Part shown: positions 49,186 to 61,187 of the stretch, one piece after another
How positions within the stretch are numbered: position 1 is the first letter of the stretch
How the letters are laid out: every line of letters begins with the position of its first letter
Assembly (NCBI RefSeq): GCF_010183535.1
Contig: NC_071332.1
Span: 4,154,001 to 4,218,000, forward strand
DNA: 64,000 nucleotides
Origin: Caenorhabditis remanei
Lineage: Eukaryota > Nematoda > Chromadorea > Rhabditida > Rhabditidae
Direction: 5' to 3'
Notes under the pieces: model-generated
Database searches by the model: none
The model's input: only the letters and a program-made list of their open reading frames with translations
What the model was told of the DNA's origin: nothing
Made by a program: the position numbers and the translations under genes

Positions 49186-49596
49186 TCAGTACTTGATAAT
49201 CAAATGATCTCCTCGAATTCTCCTTGCCAATTGCATATCCTTGGGGAGAATCGTGACTCGTTTGGCGTGAATCGCACAGAGATTCGTCAGCTCGAAGATC
49301 TCCACGAGGTATGCTTCAGAAGCTTCTTGCAACGCCAGGATTGAAGCGGACTGGAAACGAATGTCGATCACCCATTGTTGAGCGATTTGCCGGACGAGTC
49401 GTTGAAACGGCGCCTTTCGGATGAGTAGCTCCGTCGACTTTTGGTATCTTCGAATATCTCGGAGAACGACAGATCCTGGGCGGTAACGATGAGGCTTCAT
49501 GACTCCTCCTAAGGCAGGTGCGGACTTCCGGGCAGCTTTATTGGTAAGTGGCATTGACATCATCGGACGTCGTTGAGCGATTTGTTTGGTGCGCAT
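49186..49596 (-). CDS. Divergent histone H3, gene 1 (K36M, K9R, K79V)
   Basis: One exon encodes 136 residues. The histone-fold half is clearly H3: [52 protein letters not shown] and [19 protein letters not shown]. The tail starts [10 protein letters not shown], so K4 is kept but K9 is Arg, and three residues around K18 are missing. It continues [19 protein letters not shown], which keeps K23 and K27 but has Met at the K36 position. K79 is Val (QQWVIDIRF) and G102 is Glu. The C-terminus is [11 protein letters not shown], longer than the usual ERA. The protein is expected in nucleosomes with H4. TATA box and stem-loops point to replication-type expression. It does not have the CENP-A features (no long divergent loop 1). 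Confidence 0.93.
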
Positions 49597-49650
49597 CGTT
49601 GCAGAACTTCAATTGGATTGAAATGACGAGAATGAGGGAGTAGGGTGATC

Positions 49651-49658
49651 CTTTTATA
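49651..49658 (-). promoter_or_regulatory. TATA box and GC-rich promoter of H3-like gene 1
   Basis: TATAAAAG (minus strand) lies 55 bp upstream of the ATG. Just beyond it is ccggtggcggggcgtgg(cgt) followed by agactccgcctcgcca. The same arrangement (TATATAA plus ggtggcgg...ggggcgtgg...ctccgccccgc) stands in front of genes 2 and 3, so the three genes share one promoter type. Confidence 0.7.
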
Positions 49659-49760
49659 CTTTTCTCCGGTGGCGGGGCGTGGCGTATCAAGACTCCGCCT
49701 CGCCACAGCAGGATTGAAGTGGGTCAAAAAAATATTTTCGATCTATTATCGAAATAAACA

Positions 49761-49862
49761 AGTTCCGACATTTTTTCCTCGTCGGTGTTTGCGGACTCAA
49801 GCCAAAATTATCAAATTTTGGCTTGAGTCCGCAAACACCGAGGGGGAAAAAATGTCGGAACT
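49761..49862. repeat. Near-perfect 50-bp inverted repeat (hairpin)
   Basis: agttccgacattttttcctc at the left pairs with gagggggaaaaaatgtcggaact (split) at the right. In between, gtgtttgcggactcaagcc pairs with ggcttgagtccgcaaacac, with a loop of only a few bases around 49811. Only two or three mismatches are visible. Confidence 0.85.
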
Positions 49863-50605
49863 TTTTTGTTGCGACAATACTGTCTCCGATTAAAAATTTT
49901 CCTACCGCCCTTCCTACTGAACCAATTTTCTTCAAAGTTGGACCAAAAGATCGGAAATTTTCTCTTAATGATGCCCGTCTTTTTATTTTTTCAAAACGTT
50001 CAAAATGACGTCTTCTGGGACAGAAAGAGCGATAAAGCATGCGGGAATCGACAGCCGAGAAGGAGGAGAGACGGTCGGCAAAGCGTCGGCTCTTCTTTCC
50101 TCGCCTCGGGCGCCGTTTCCCTTGGGTCGCGTGGTTAAGGTCGGTGCGTCGCAGCGTCCGATCTGGCAAGTTAGGCAACGTTGACTACAGGTAGTAGGTT
50201 GGAACCCATGTGGCCACATGAAATTTTTTTTTGATACCATATGATTCAGAAAAAATAGAGGATTCCAAACGTGTTGTCCGTTTCCGGATTGAGCCACGTC
50301 ATAAAAAGACACGGGCTGTTCTCTAAAAAAAACGAAGTGAGAGATTTTTTAATATCAATGGATTCAGAAAAAAATACAGGATTCCAAACGTGTCGCCCCT
50401 TTCCGGATTAACAAAGATTTACGCCGTCAGGCGACGTAAACCGACTGGTGTTTTGAAAATAGGATTTTTTGGATTTGTTCCCGATGGGTTCTGCGGATTG
50501 GTCTTAAGGCGAATATTCTTCGAAAAGTTCAGAAAAATGAAGAAATTGAAAAAATATTTATTTTTTTATTTACTTCAAGAAGAAAGTTGGATTATTCAGA
50601 TTTGT

Positions 50606-50621
50606 GGCCTTAAAGAAGGCC
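50606..50621 (-). terminator. Histone-type 3' stem-loop of H3-like gene 2
   Basis: GGCCTT-CTTT-AAGGCC on the minus strand lies 58 bp past the stop. A shorter imperfect hairpin (ggtcttaagatcc, 50655-50667) lies between, perhaps a decayed second copy like the pair behind gene 1. Confidence 0.75.
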
Positions 50622-50679
50622 TTTGGGGTCGGTAGTTGGTTAGAGAATTGAAACGGTCTTAAGATCCAAAAATGGAAAT

Positions 50680-51078
50680 TCAAGCACGCTCTCCTCGGAT
50701 TCTTCTCGCTAGCATCATGTCTTTAGTCATGATTGTGACTCGTTTGGCGTGGATGGCGCAGAGATTCGTTAACTCGAATATCTCGACCAAGTACGCCTCA
50801 GAGGCTTCTTGCATTACAAGAATGGAAGAAGACTGGAATCGGTAGTCGATCAAATAATCTTGAATGATCTCTCGGACAAGCCGTTGGAATGGGGCTTTCC
50901 GAATAATAAGGTCCGTGGATTTTTGGTACCTTCGGATCTCCCGGAGAGCGACAGTTCCTGGGCGGTATCGATGAGGCTTCATAATGGCTCCTGAGGCTGG
51001 TGCCATCTTGCGAGCACATTTGGGTGTCCAGATGAGCATCTGGGGAGGACGATGTTGTGCGACAGGCTTTGAGCGCAT
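50680..51078 (-). CDS. Divergent histone H3, gene 2 (K36M, K9H, K79L)
   Basis: The ATG at 51078 gives 132 residues; the frame upstream contains only a TTG. The tail [13 protein letters not shown] keeps K4 and has His at the K9 position. [17 protein letters not shown] keeps K27 but has S28M, and Met at the K36 position. The fold region is H3-like ([62 protein letters not shown]). K79 is Leu (QDYLIDYRF). L65A, G102E and D106L are shared with gene 1. It lies between genes 1 and 3 in the same orientation, with the same promoter type and 3' stem-loop. Orthology to a named C. elegans H3 variant is not clear. Confidence 0.93.
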
Positions 51079-51645
51079 CGTTGTGAAGTTCAATTGGATT
51101 GAAATGATGATAATGAGGGGGAATAGTGTTCTTTATATACCGGGTTCTGGTGGCGGAAGGGGCGTGGCCTCTCCGCCCCGCCACCGCAATGAAGAGAAGG
51201 AAGAAGGAAGATGGGGATATTGAGGTAGTATCGGGTAGTAAAGAGAGAAAGAGAAGAACTGAGAACTTCAAATTTAGGAGGATACTGTATAATGGATGCT
51301 TGGCACTGTATACTGGATGCTTTGGCCGGATACTGTATACTGGAGTTTAGTTGGCGGAAACTGGAAATAGGGTTATCAGAAAATTGGGAAACGAACCTTT
51401 TCAAACAACAAAAGTCGCATTTTTGAATTCCTCAACAAAGTTCAAAAAAGGTGTATTTCCTAGGGAAAGTTTCCGGAATACTGTAACTTCTGGATTACTG
51501 TAGCAGACGATTTCATAGGTCCTCAGTGATGGCGTTGTTGTCCAGGGGAAAACTTTCTAAAAAGATCAGAAAACATGGAGAAATTGAAAAAAAAAACCTA
51601 TTTATTTATTTACTTCAAGATAAAAGTTGGATTTTTGGTATTTGT
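51079..51645. other. Spacer between H3-like genes 2 and 3
   Basis: It holds the gene 2 promoter and short tandem motifs (ggatactgtatamtggatgcttgg, about 51280-51345). No gene is recognised. Confidence 0.5.
51133..51139 (-). promoter_or_regulatory. TATA box of H3-like gene 2
   Basis: TATATAA on the minus strand lies 55 bp upstream of the ATG, with the conserved ggtggcggaaggggcgtggcc and ctccgccccgcca blocks further upstream. Confidence 0.7.
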
Positions 51646-51680: not shown

Positions 51681-52067
51681 CTAGAATCGCTCTCCTCGAA
51701 TTCTTCTGGCAAGTTGAATATCCTTTGGCATGATTGTCACTCGCTTGGCGTGGAGGGCGCAAAGATTTGACAACTTGAAAATCTCAACCAGGTAAGCCTC
51801 CGAGGCTTCTTGCATTGCCAAAAAAGCAGAAGTTTGGAAGCGTAATTCGGTCATATAGTCTTGAACTATCTCCCGGACAAGCCGTTGGAATGGTGCCTTG
51901 CGGATGAGTAGTTCCGTTGACTTCTGATAGCGTCGAATCTCTCGGAGAGCGACAGTTCCTGGGCGATAGCGGTGAGGCGGCTTGACTCCTCCTGAGCATG
52001 GTGCAGAAATCCGGGCAGCTTTGGCGTATAGAGAAGGACGATGTTGAGCGACAGATTTCGAGCGCAT
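51681..52067 (-). CDS. Divergent histone H3, gene 3 (K27I, K9H, K79M)
   Basis: The ATG at 52067 gives 128 residues. The tail [20 protein letters not shown] is seven residues shorter than canonical H3 between positions 11 and 22. K4 and K23 are kept, K9 is His, and the K27 position is Ile (KAARISAP). K36 is kept, but K37 is Pro (GGVKPPHR). K79 is Met (QDYMTELRF). The fold is H3 ([73 protein letters not shown]). It shares L65A and G102E with genes 1 and 2, so the three form one clade. The stop is preceded by ERF instead of ERA. Confidence 0.93.
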
Positions 52068-52118: not shown

Positions 52119-52125
52119 TTATATA
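52119..52125 (-). promoter_or_regulatory. TATA box of H3-like gene 3
   Basis: TATATAA on the minus strand lies 52 bp upstream of the ATG, followed upstream by the shared ggtggcggaaggggcgtggc / ctccgccccgc promoter blocks. Confidence 0.7.
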
Positions 52126-57137: not shown

Positions 57138-58670
57138 AAGGGATGAAAAAGAAGTAGGATTCAGTTAATTATAGATTATAAGAAGGGTCCCTAGGTTAAT
57201 AGCAGGGTGGGCGTTGTCTTGACAACATGGTAATAAAATGCGAGAAAAATTGATTCCCAGTATATGATAGCACAAGTTTTATGTAAGGAATTTTGTGTTT
57301 TCATCGGCAGGCTCATAGCTAATTGTTAGGTTCACAGTTTCCACTTGAATACTAAATAATGATACCTCCTCCTCCTGGTCCTACTGGGATTGCTGCTCCT
57401 GGTCCTACTTGGATTGCTGCTCCTTGTCCGGGCAAGTATTCTGAAAATTTAGTTGGTACTATTTTTAAATAGAACACCGCAACTCACGCATTAAACCAGC
57501 AAAGCCTGGAACTTTCGGAGCGTATTGAACGGCGTGGACGTCGAGCTTGTCGACTGGCAAGACGTAGAGTGGCGCGTTTTTATATTGGAGCTCTTTCGTA
57601 GTCTTCTGTCTCGATTCATGACGTTGTCCCGTTGATATATCCACGAAGCTCCGATGTTGTCGTAATCCGACATTACTCATCCACATCAACTTGTCTTTCA
57701 ATCCGCCAAGAGGAACGGCATTAAAAAAGTCGGTTCGGCATCTTTCACAGTCCTGATAGATGTGGTCGTACCATGCTTTGATACCAACAGCCATCGGAAT
57801 GATGTATTTGTGTGCAGTTTCTTCCACTCGCATGTTGTGAGCATGATTCCGGTGGTTGGAACTATCAACGACGCTCAACGCCATTAAATCCGCGAAGGTG
57901 ACGTCCGCGTCAATAGCATCGATTGCAGCGTTGGTGATGGCGTCGAGTTCGCTGAAAGATGTGAAATATTCCAGACTTGAATGAAAATGGGGTTTTTATA
58001 GAGTGTTTTACAAGAAAATTGATTTTATTTATAACATATTGGAATCAAAACTAGAAAAACTCACTCAAAAGTGTGGTTCGGTCCGAGAAGTTCGAATTGA
58101 TTCTTGATGGTGTGAATCAACTGCATGAGTTCGACAGAAGATTCTTTCTTTTCGAACGCACTTCTGTCCTGATCCTCTGCACGTACCGATACACTTAACA
58201 TCGATCCACTAGCGACTGTCGAAGTCATCTGGAAGATGGGTTTTGCACAGATTCGTGTCGGATCCGGATATTTGTGGGTGGAGTTAGTTGCTACTGCTTG
58301 AGGCAGATGGAGGCTAAAAAGAACATTCAGATTCTCCAAAAAGACGGCTGGATTGATGAGAAGGTGCGGCTGCATCAACTGAAGCTGCGAGACTGGGATT
58401 CCATTCCCGACGGCTGCTCTTAAGACTGTTTCCATCATTGTGAAGAGTTTCTTATCTCCCAGTTCCAGTTGACCCATCATCGCTCGAAATTCTGGATGCT
58501 CGAACGCTTCATTCTTGTAGACATCCTTGAAGGACTGGAAGTCGCGTACCTGAAACATTGAATAATAAATATACAGCAAAGACAAGCTGGCGCTAAGTGA
58601 GTTGAGGGCACTCAAATTTCGAATGTTTAGGCAAATACAAAAACAAAAATTGACAACTTAGTCGTTTTTT
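56861..58670. repeat. Left arm of a large inverted duplication
   Basis: Positions x and 118539-x are complementary from 56861 to 58670. The encoded proteins of the two arms are identical, and introns and promoters match wherever I compared bases. The outer break is between 56860 and 56861 (mirror 61678/61679). Colinearity by simple mirroring ends at a 7-versus-6 T homopolymer at 58665-58671. This arm holds complete genes crossing both of its ends, so it is the older copy. Confidence 0.92.
57213..57226 (-). promoter_or_regulatory. X-box of micro-protein gene B
   Basis: GTTGTCTTGACAAC is a perfect 14-bp palindrome with X-box half-sites, 76 bp upstream of the ATG at 57137. It is duplicated in the other arm at 61313. 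Confidence 0.65.
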
Positions 58671-59900: not shown

Positions 59901-59989
59901 GTATTTGCCTAAACATTCGAAATTTGAGTGCCCTCAACTCACTTAGCGCCAGCTTGTCTTTGCTGTATATTTATTATTCAATGTTTCAG

Positions 59990-61187
59990 GTACGCGACTT
60001 CCAGTCCTTCAAGGATGTCTACAAGAATGAAGCGTTCGAGCATCCAGAATTTCGAGCGATGATGGGTCAACTGGAACTGGGAGATAAGAAACTCTTCACA
60101 ATGATGGAAACAGTCTTAAGAGCAGCCGTCGGGAATGGAATCCCAGTCTCGCAGCTTCAGTTGATGCAGCCGCACCTTCTCATCAATCCAGCCGTCTTTT
60201 TGGAGAATCTGAATGTTCTTTTTAGCCTCCATCTGCCTCAAGCAGTAGCAACTAACTCCACCCACAAATATCCGGATCCGACACGAATCTGTGCAAAACC
60301 CATCTTCCAGATGACTTCGACAGTCGCTAGTGGATCGATGTTAAGTGTATCGGTACGTGCAGAGGATCAGGACAGAAGTGCGTTCGAAAAGAAAGAATCT
60401 TCTGTCGAACTCATGCAGTTGATTCACACCATCAAGAATCAATTCGAACTTCTCGGACCGAACCACACTTTTGAGTGAGTTTTTCTAGTTTTGATTCCAA
60501 TATGTTATAAATAAAATCAATTTTCTTGTAAAACACTCTATAAAAACCCCATTTTCATTCAAGTCTGGAATATTTCACATCTTTCAGCGAACTCGACGCC
60601 ATCACCAACGCTGCAATCGATGCTATTGACGCGGACGTCACCTTCGCGGATTTAATGGCGTTGAGCGTCGTTGATAGTTCCAACCACCGGAATCATGCTC
60701 ACAACATGCGAGTGGAAGAAACTGCACACAAATACATCATTCCGATGGCTGTTGGTATCAAAGCATGGTACGACCACATCTATCAGGACTGTGAAAGATG
60801 CCGAACCGACTTTTTTAATGCCGTTCCTCTTGGCGGATTGAAAGACAAGTTGATGTGGATGAGTAATGTCGGATTACGACAACATCGGAGCTTCGTGGAT
60901 ATATCAACGGGACAACGTCATGAATCGAGACAGAAGACTACGAAAGAGCTCCAATATAAAAACGCGCCACTCTACGTCTTGCCAGTCGACAAGCTCGACG
61001 TCCACGCCGTTCAATACGCTCCGAAAGTTCCAGGCTTTGCTGGTTTAATGCGTGAGTTGCGGTGTTCTATTTAAAAATAGTACCAACTAAATTTTCAGAA
61101 TACTTGCCCGGACAAGGAGCAGCAATCCAAGTAGGACCAGGAGCAGCAATCCCAGTAGGACCAGGAGGAGGAGGTATCATTATTTAG
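59990..61187 (+). pseudogene. Truncated inverted copy of the 380-residue gene
   Basis: Exon equivalents 59990-60474, 60588-61051 and 61099-61187 encode exactly the protein of exons 2-4 of the minus-strand gene. Exon 1 and its promoter are absent because the duplication starts inside intron 1. A shorter protein could start at the ATG at 59981, which reads MFQ through the old acceptor into VRDF; all splice sites are intact. The absence of any coding difference suggests a young duplication or ongoing gene conversion, not proven function. Confidence 0.8.

Follow-up and report, generated by a model that had tools for sequence, protein, structure and literature searches.

Tandem Histone H3 Variants of Caenorhabditis remanei Bear Methionine at Position 36 or Isoleucine at Position 27 and Keep a Histone Fold Under Selection

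In this work, we describe three tandem genes of C. remanei, designated g1, g2 and g3, which encode H3-like histones with several methyl-lysines replaced, including K36 by methionine in g1 and g2, and K27 by isoleucine in g3. An earlier note on this DNA had reported a pair of H3 genes with Met36; its reading of the sequence is correct but falls short of what is there, as K36M is present twice, K27I once, and a separate Met36 gene (L019) resides elsewhere in the genome. The reading that we prefer, with a probability of roughly one half, is that g1-g3 are old tandem paralogs of replication-type H3, with the core under selection and the methyl-lysines replaced, acting mainly in cis as an H3 refractory to these marks. 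So far, K-to-M histones have been familiar from cancer, where they arise by mutation, and as tools of the laboratory. A selected, inherited K36M/K27I family together with recurrent Met36 would mean that such proteins are put to use, or at any rate tolerated, in evolution.

Results

Organization of the H3-Like Genes

The genes g1-g3 are arranged in tandem on the minus strand, with starts about 1.0-1.5 kb apart, in the window, i.e., the whole 64-kb stretch of DNA analysed (G000:C5:4154001-4218000; Table 1). The two genes reported previously are real, but they belong to a trio, as g3, situated just beyond them, had been overlooked. The Met36 codons, TATA promoters and histone stem-loops ascribed to g1 and g2 were all confirmed; the curated cut-off for the Rfam stem-loop family is 34 bits, so that g1 alone lies above it and the stem-loops of g2 and g3 fall just below. 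An AATAAA is found downstream of each stop codon. This layout (TATA box, no introns, 3′ stem-loop) is the same as in the canonical replication-type H3 genes of this genome. Motif scans for H4, H2A and H2B gave no match in the whole 64-kb window, so g1-g3 look like orphan H3 genes.

Table 1. Positions of the genes and their elements (numbered within the window, except for the last line).
Feature	Position	Strand	Characteristics
g1	49186..49596	-	H3-like, intact, intronless, 136 aa; Pfam Histone 1.7e-38
g2	50680..51078	-	H3-like, intact, intronless, 132 aa; Pfam Histone 1.7e-39
g3	51681..52067	-	H3-like, intact, intronless, 128 aa; Pfam Histone 3.8e-43
g1 codon 36	49498-49500	-	ATG (K36M)
g2 codon 36	50980-50982	-	ATG (K36M)
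g3 codon 27	52008-52010	-	ATT (K27I)
g3 codon 79	51852-51854	-	ATG (K79M)
g1 TATA box	49653..49658	-	-62 from ATG
g2 TATA box	51134..51139	-	-61 from ATG
g3 TATA box	52120..52125	-	-58 from ATG
g1 histone 3′UTR stem-loop	49083..49128	-	RF00032, 35.4 bits
g2 histone 3′UTR stem-loop	50581..50626	-	RF00032, 32.6 bits; GGCCTTCTTTAAGGCC
g3 histone 3′UTR stem-loop	51622..51666	-	RF00032, 32.8 bits
L019/L024	G000:C6:2592905-2593468		two-exon H3 gene on another chromosome, GT-AG splice sites, Met36 (ATG)

The 3′UTR of g2 (50595-50679) shares 77 of 85 bases with that of the canonical H3 gene L007 at a fold dS of 1.39 between the two genes, and this likeness may be due to either constraint or conversion. 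The optimal-codon fraction, calculated with a list of codons taken to be optimal, was 0.46-0.51 for g1-g3 vs. 0.77-0.80 for the canonical H3 copies, and this far weaker codon bias suggests that the output of the trio may be low.

Two other elements of the window were recorded. Between g1 and g2, a hairpin with 66-base arms (49744-49879, 91% complementary) gave weak, sub-cut-off matches to microRNA precursors, and an identical 165-aa reading frame is present twice as an inverted duplication (58061-58558, minus strand; 59981-60478, plus strand).

Residue Changes and Class Membership

The canonical H3 encoded by L007 of the same genome served as a reference for the comparison of residues. In g1, g2 and g3, respectively, 11, 6 and 8 of residues 1-26 match the reference, as do 16, 13 and 14 of the 18 residues 27-44, and 68, 71 and 74 of the 91 residues 45-135 (75-81%). 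A conserved tail 1-26 with its modifiable lysines is therefore absent. Conservation of everything after residue 36, as claimed for g1 and g2, holds for K37-R42, which are intact, but not for the region 45-135, where 23/91 and 20/91 residues differ from L007.

Besides K36M, g1 bears K9R, T32L and K79V as well as a C-terminal extension ending with HLIIKY; it keeps G33, G34, V35 and P38, the context required for SETD2 binding. In g2, K36M is accompanied by K9H, S28M, G34A, V35I and K79L, such that g2 departs from this context at residues 34 and 35. In g3, K36 is kept and K27I lies within AARISAP, the setting of the K27M/I oncohistones (AAR-SAP), along with K9H, K37P and K79M. Thus, in g1/g2/g3, residue 36 is M/M/K and residue 27 is K/K/I; none of the three proteins has K9 (R/H/H in its place), K14, K18 or K79 (V/L/M in its place), the placement of residues 14 and 18 being alignment-dependent. 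Since K36M is one of several methyl-lysine losses, an account built on K36 alone is too narrow.

The retained lysines are K4, K23, K56, K64, K115 and K122, and the presence of K4 and K23 means that the tail is not wholly blank. Also kept are arginines 40, 42, 49, 63, 69, 72, 83 and 116, which we take to be DNA contacts, and C110, H113, D123, L126, R129 and R131, presumably residues of the tetramer interface. The changes common to g1-g3 comprise L65A, M90L, G102E, L103I and D106L, of which G102E and D106L may weaken the octamer. Codon 79 is GTG in g1, TTG in g2, ATG in g3 and AAG in the canonical gene; as ATG is one step away from each of the others, K79M would be the simplest ancestor of the trio.

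Within g1-g3, K27, K36 and K79 are replaced by M, I, L or V only, and other losses include K9 to R/H, K37 to P and K14 to S/M. Aliphatic replacement at three of five lost-lysine sites (9, 27, 36, 37, 79), compared with a neutral expectation of 10-21% per lost lysine, corresponds to P ~0.01-0.07 with the sites picked post hoc, and the case for the lost lysines turning aliphatic beyond chance is weak.

The Pfam matches (PF00125; E-values in Table 1) assign all three proteins to histones, and the best matches to H3 in the PDB have E-values of 7.4e-58 (g1) and 1e-55 (g2); a search of NCBIfam yielded no useful result. Identity with H3.3 was ruled out by the broken A87-x-I89-G90 motif (residue 90 is L) and the lack of introns. 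Nor does the trio resemble CenH3 (CENP-A), which has a strongly divergent fold with a change in loop 1: the fold of g1-g3 is identical to canonical H3 at 68-74 of 91 residues and bears no insertion; L018, which along with L023 we take to be CENP-A-like, is 48% identical to g2. The top PDB match for g2 is chain A of 6nzo, an H3 bearing Met36 in an entry shared with a lysine methyltransferase. For g1, it is 6nj9, where H3 reads Leu at 79, presumably norleucine serving as a trap for Dot1L. The closest solved H3s to g1/g2 include chains from entries with Set2, NSD2, NSD3 or SETD2, among which Met36 was seen in 6nzo only.

Selection on the Histone Fold

The dN/dS ratio for the fold was 0.08 (g1-g2), 0.11 (g1-g3) and 0.10 (g2-g3) at dS of 1.15-1.67, and for the tail, 0.26, 0.78 and 0.48 for the same pairs; the tail is clearly less constrained than the fold. 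When neutral decay from canonical H3 was simulated to depths of 0.35, 0.5, 0.75 and 1.0 substitutions per site, the reading frame stayed open in 49, 25, 10 and 9 of 2000 runs, respectively, and no run retained more than 60 of the 90 fold residues, compared with the 68-74 of 91 seen in g1-g3. The low fold dN/dS and the simulation together indicate that g1-g3 are histones under selection, whose tail is freer to change. The germline-encoded K36M genes described in the earlier note are hence intact, with a fold that is subject to selection, and the relaxed dN/dS that it had named as the sign of pseudogenes is not seen there.

These data bear directly on the possibility that g1-g3 are decaying duplicates in which position 36 simply drifts. 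Such a view would account for tail dN/dS values of up to 0.78, for tails varying in both length and sequence, for the low codon bias and for a residue 36 that differs even inside the trio. It is, however, contradicted by the fold dN/dS and by three open frames with TATA boxes and stem-loops that are intact at near-saturated synonymous divergence. We conclude that decay is largely refuted for the fold and, as an explanation of the whole locus, quite improbable. That g1 and g2 should both retain ATG36 has P ~0.10, as estimated from 22/48 identical fourfold sites, and is not significant alone.

Met36 Proteins in Other Records

A protein database search with the g1 tail gave 16 candidates; among the seven listed, Met36 was found in four (P0044, which is g1 itself, P0041, P0122 and P0121), Lys36 in P0123 and P0124, and Arg36 in P0125. 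P0041 comes from a separate ENA record (a 1217-base contig); it is the product of g1 save for 2 of 136 residues and retains Met36, so that an assembly error can be dismissed for g1. A simple pseudogene or assembly artefact is ruled out for g1 by this record, and the fold dN/dS and the simulation speak likewise for the fold. In the protein database searched, which is clustered at 90% identity, no second record of g2 was seen; the g3 cluster (P0045) represents two member sequences. As a separate observation, P0121 (ENA, a 690-base contig) combines an otherwise canonical H3 tail and fold start with Met36, followed by apparent intron sequence.

In a wider motif scan, Met36 was present in 5 of 249 matches among 222 proteins (P0009, P0041, P0044, P0121 and P0122), the remainder having Lys (239), Arg (3) or His (2, apparent out-of-frame matches); since the database consists of 90%-identity clusters and shared exact words were required, near-canonical K36M H3s or a motif like that of L019 would escape such searches. 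The 120 matches listed in a search with the joined tails added no other protein with Met36.

The C. tropicalis UniRef histone P0122 resembles g1 and g2 in having Met36 and a rewritten tail (7-22), but its fold is identical to that of L007 at 85 of 91 residues and K79 is kept. It joined g1-g3 in the tree of the whole alignment (bootstrap 87) and on the tail (SH-aLRT/bootstrap 95.3/93 with column 36, 80.7/46 without it), stood apart from them on the core (placed elsewhere at 74.8/37) and, when L019 was added, left the trio to sit with the canonical L011 at 73/60. The placement of P0122 thus varies with the rows and columns used; a common origin with g1-g3, and likewise a single origin of all Met36 genes, is one possible reading of these trees.

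H3 Relatives in the C. remanei Genome

The genome search covered, among nematodes, the C. remanei assembly (130,466,896 bases, 186 contigs) and its 24 candidates yielded 25 H3-like matches. Residue 36 could be read in 16 loci outside the cluster: it is Lys in 14 (L004-L014, L016, L017, L020/L021), Arg in L015 and Met in L019, with the second exons L022 and L024 and the CENP-A-like L018 and L023/L025, which have no alignable residue 36, left out of the count. The spliced product of L019 has 145 residues (SARKAAPVTLGTMRPVRFRPG) with a longer tail and the motif GTMRPVRFRPG. Like g1 and g2, it has Met36; unlike g1-g3, its gene has one intron, a histone stem-loop sought downstream was not found, and K9 is kept. 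K27 is kept as well. The other changes are G33L, V35T, K37R, H39V and K79N.

The trio forms one group (bootstrap 100; 95.6/96 by SH-aLRT/bootstrap with L019 in the tree); the branching order inside it differs between trees, with g2+g3 at 57 in one and g1+g2 at 69 on the core in another. L019, which has Ala65 and Glu102 in common with g1-g3, joins them weakly at 87.8/86 (87.7/88 once column 36 is removed). As L019 is a divergent row, this grouping may be a long-branch artefact.

Several other H3 loci in the genome are unusual in their own way. L015 (G000:C1:2477365-2477703, minus strand) and L016 (2482046-2482354, plus strand) are two divergent H3 genes arranged head to head, with K23M and K27F; L015 also bears K36R, K37R and K79R, and the frame of L016 continues beyond KDM into what reads like a translated 3′UTR stem-loop (NPTALFRATNP). 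L014 (G000:C5:22364189-22364530) is an intronless H3 with an H3.3-type AAIG motif and a histone stem-loop, where the segment 28-35 is shortened and altered (KAARKGPIVGAVKKPHRF). In L013 (G000:C1:4043386-4043727), a canonical H3 core with a stem-loop is preceded by an in-frame non-histone N-terminal sequence in place of the H3 tail.

The odd H3s (L013-L016, L019), together with a fold that is kept and a tail free to vary, would fit a fast-evolving H3 family specific for gametes, e.g., sperm, in which packaging is the function and Met36/Ile27 are incidental. Sperm packaging usually favours more basic tails; on the contrary, the number of K+R in the tail is down to 8 (g1), 7 (g2) and 6 (g3) vs. 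12 in canonical H3. Such a family would also leave unexplained the recurrence of Met36 in g1/g2, L019 and the C. tropicalis gene. Reproductive variants with altered tails or nucleosomes do exist, as the passages of PMC7410336 on plant sperm H3.10 and mammalian H3.5 and H3T describe, and still we regard a gamete-packaging role as improbable.

Predicted Trapping of Methyltransferases

Published work on SETD2 specificity allows the Met36 segments to be compared with a known substrate. According to the relevant passages of PMC7495481, SETD2 reads H3 from P30 to R42, is strictest at G33, G34, V35 and P38, and at position 32 favours F, Y, L, I and R over T. In fission yeast, all G34 changes tried, Ala included, severely lowered H3K36me3 in cis, and K36M was dominant over endogenous H3; in vitro, SETD2 methylated those G34 mutants that were tested only poorly, and G34R abolished the trapping by K36M (described in PMC5335568). 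According to PMC6562757, SETD2 and NSD2 are inhibited by K36M whereas NSD1 is not, and the dominance of K27I is reported to be lesser than that of K27M (in PMC8025322).

As g1 keeps all four strict positions along with the favoured T32L, it is predicted to bind SETD2, and the segment of the C. tropicalis P0122 passes the published rules as well. In g2, Ala34 is expected to impair recognition by Set2/SETD2, which makes a dominant-poison role unlikely for it; g2 (G34A) and L019 (G33L, V35T) are probably poor traps. The proposal that the Met36 proteins may be dominant chromatin poisons is thus plausible for g1, judging from published SETD2 specificity, but unlikely for g2. By its K27I, g3 would be a weaker member of the enzyme-trapping class. 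L019 adds to the recurrence of Met36 but is a second poor fit to SETD2, so that the odds between action in cis and in trans remain unchanged.

The enzyme side was found in the same genome. L026 is its SETD2-type AWS-SET enzyme (best PDB matches SETD2, E 1.8e-49) and keeps TFDYQF--YG-EAQ, whose F..Y..E.Q residues would form the lining of the tunnel for G34 and of the pocket for residue 32, the numbering being deduced from spacing. Two EZH-type CXC loci are present, L027 (G000:C6:19875621) and L028 (G000:C2:5420787), the latter with EZH2 as its best PDB match; in C. elegans, a single mes-2 is known.

Discussion

The replacement of methyl-lysines in an H3 with a selected core may act in two ways. 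By chemistry, a nucleosomal H3 from g1 or g2 cannot gain methylation at K36, and one from g3 cannot gain it at K27. In the preferred reading, g1-g3 would be made in S phase in a restricted tissue or stage and enter nucleosomes that are unable to bear methylation of H3K9, H3K79 and either H3K36 or H3K27, thereby acting chiefly in cis as a largely “blank” H3. Against this reading stand the weak codon bias, G102E and D106L, which may weaken the octamer, the retention of K4 and K23, and a persistence of Met36 between g1 and g2 that is not significant by itself. The 29-42 segment of g1, with its good fit to the SETD2 channel, may also hold the worm's SETD2-type enzyme, and enzyme inhibition in trans by g1, perhaps also by g3, possibly takes place.

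The main rival of the cis reading makes trans inhibition the function: Met36 of g1 would fill the lysine channel of MET-1/SETD2-type, perhaps also MES-4/NSD-type, enzymes and lower H3K36 methylation on ordinary H3, with Ile27 of g3 hitting PRC2 more weakly. We regard this natural set of oncohistones as possible, though clearly less probable than action in cis. It is favoured by the strongest SETD2 determinants and Leu32 retained in g1, by the conserved pocket of L026, by the methyltransferase entries among the closest solved H3s, by the restriction of the changes at K27, K36 and K79 to M/I/L/V, and by the K36M dominance and lesser K27I dominance described in PMC5335568 and PMC8025322. On the other side, two of the three Met36 proteins of the genome (g2 and L019) appear ill-suited as traps, the statistics of the aliphatic bias are weak with sites chosen post hoc, and other lysines were replaced differently: K9 by R or H, K37 by P and K14 by S or M in the trio, with K27F, K36R and K79R in L015 and K79N in L019. 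A broader version, in which natural oncohistones would trap methyltransferases of K36 (g1 and the C. tropicalis gene), K27 (g3) and possibly K79 (g1-g3, given a putative K79M ancestor) in trans, appears rather doubtful. Were it true, the set would serve to block inherited chromatin marks, or to reset them, in defined cells.

The same chemistry could be toxic and the tails are lineage-specific, which would suit a maternal or paternal chromatin poison favoured by drive and not for its use to the host. No candidate antidote was identified on a non-systematic annotation of the neighbouring genes, and long persistence as three diverged copies would be atypical of a drive element, making such a conflict element highly improbable.

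Among known systems, human H3.3/H3.1 K36M of chondroblastoma is similar to g1 and g2 in Met36 followed by intact K37-P38-H39-R40-Y41-R42. However, the human changes are somatic mutations, whereas the worm genes are germline ones with a divergent fold, a rewritten tail 1-26 and other methyl-lysines lost, and g2 adds G34A. Similarly, g3 has Ile27 in AARISAP just as the human K27M/K27I oncohistones do, but it is a germline gene with K36 beside K37P. Closest to the cis reading are the natural plant variants H3.15, which lacks K27, and sperm H3.10, which resists K27 methylation; in both, as the passages of PMC7410336 have it, tail changes block a methyl mark in cis. Unlike them, g1-g3 are also hit at K36 and K79, and their Met/Ile replacements are of the trapping class.

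C. elegans has 15 replication-coupled H3 genes (reported in PMC10081851), and its H3.3 and H3.3-like genes include the highly diverged his-74 (reported in PMC1484599); the passages of these two papers on C. elegans H3 genes make no mention of Met36. The replication-coupled H3 genes of Caenorhabditis share with g1-g3 the intronless structure, TATA box and 3′ stem-loop, but g1-g3 are orphan genes with a rewritten tail and 75-81% identity to L007 in residues 45-135. The titles and abstracts retrieved in literature searches on natural K36M H3 and on K36M with Caenorhabditis describe no natural K36M H3. In C. elegans, as PMC6218224 reports, H3K36me3 is made by MES-4 and MET-1, and MES-4 passes the mark between generations. 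A selected, inherited family of this kind would also offer a tractable animal for the study of mark-refractory H3, within a genus in which this mark, in C. elegans, carries germline memory.

Outside nematodes, the histone H3.3-like P0143 of Apium graveolens (seven members) reads KVARMRAPTTGAYRKPH, with Met27 and Arg36, and is a natural K27M-like case.
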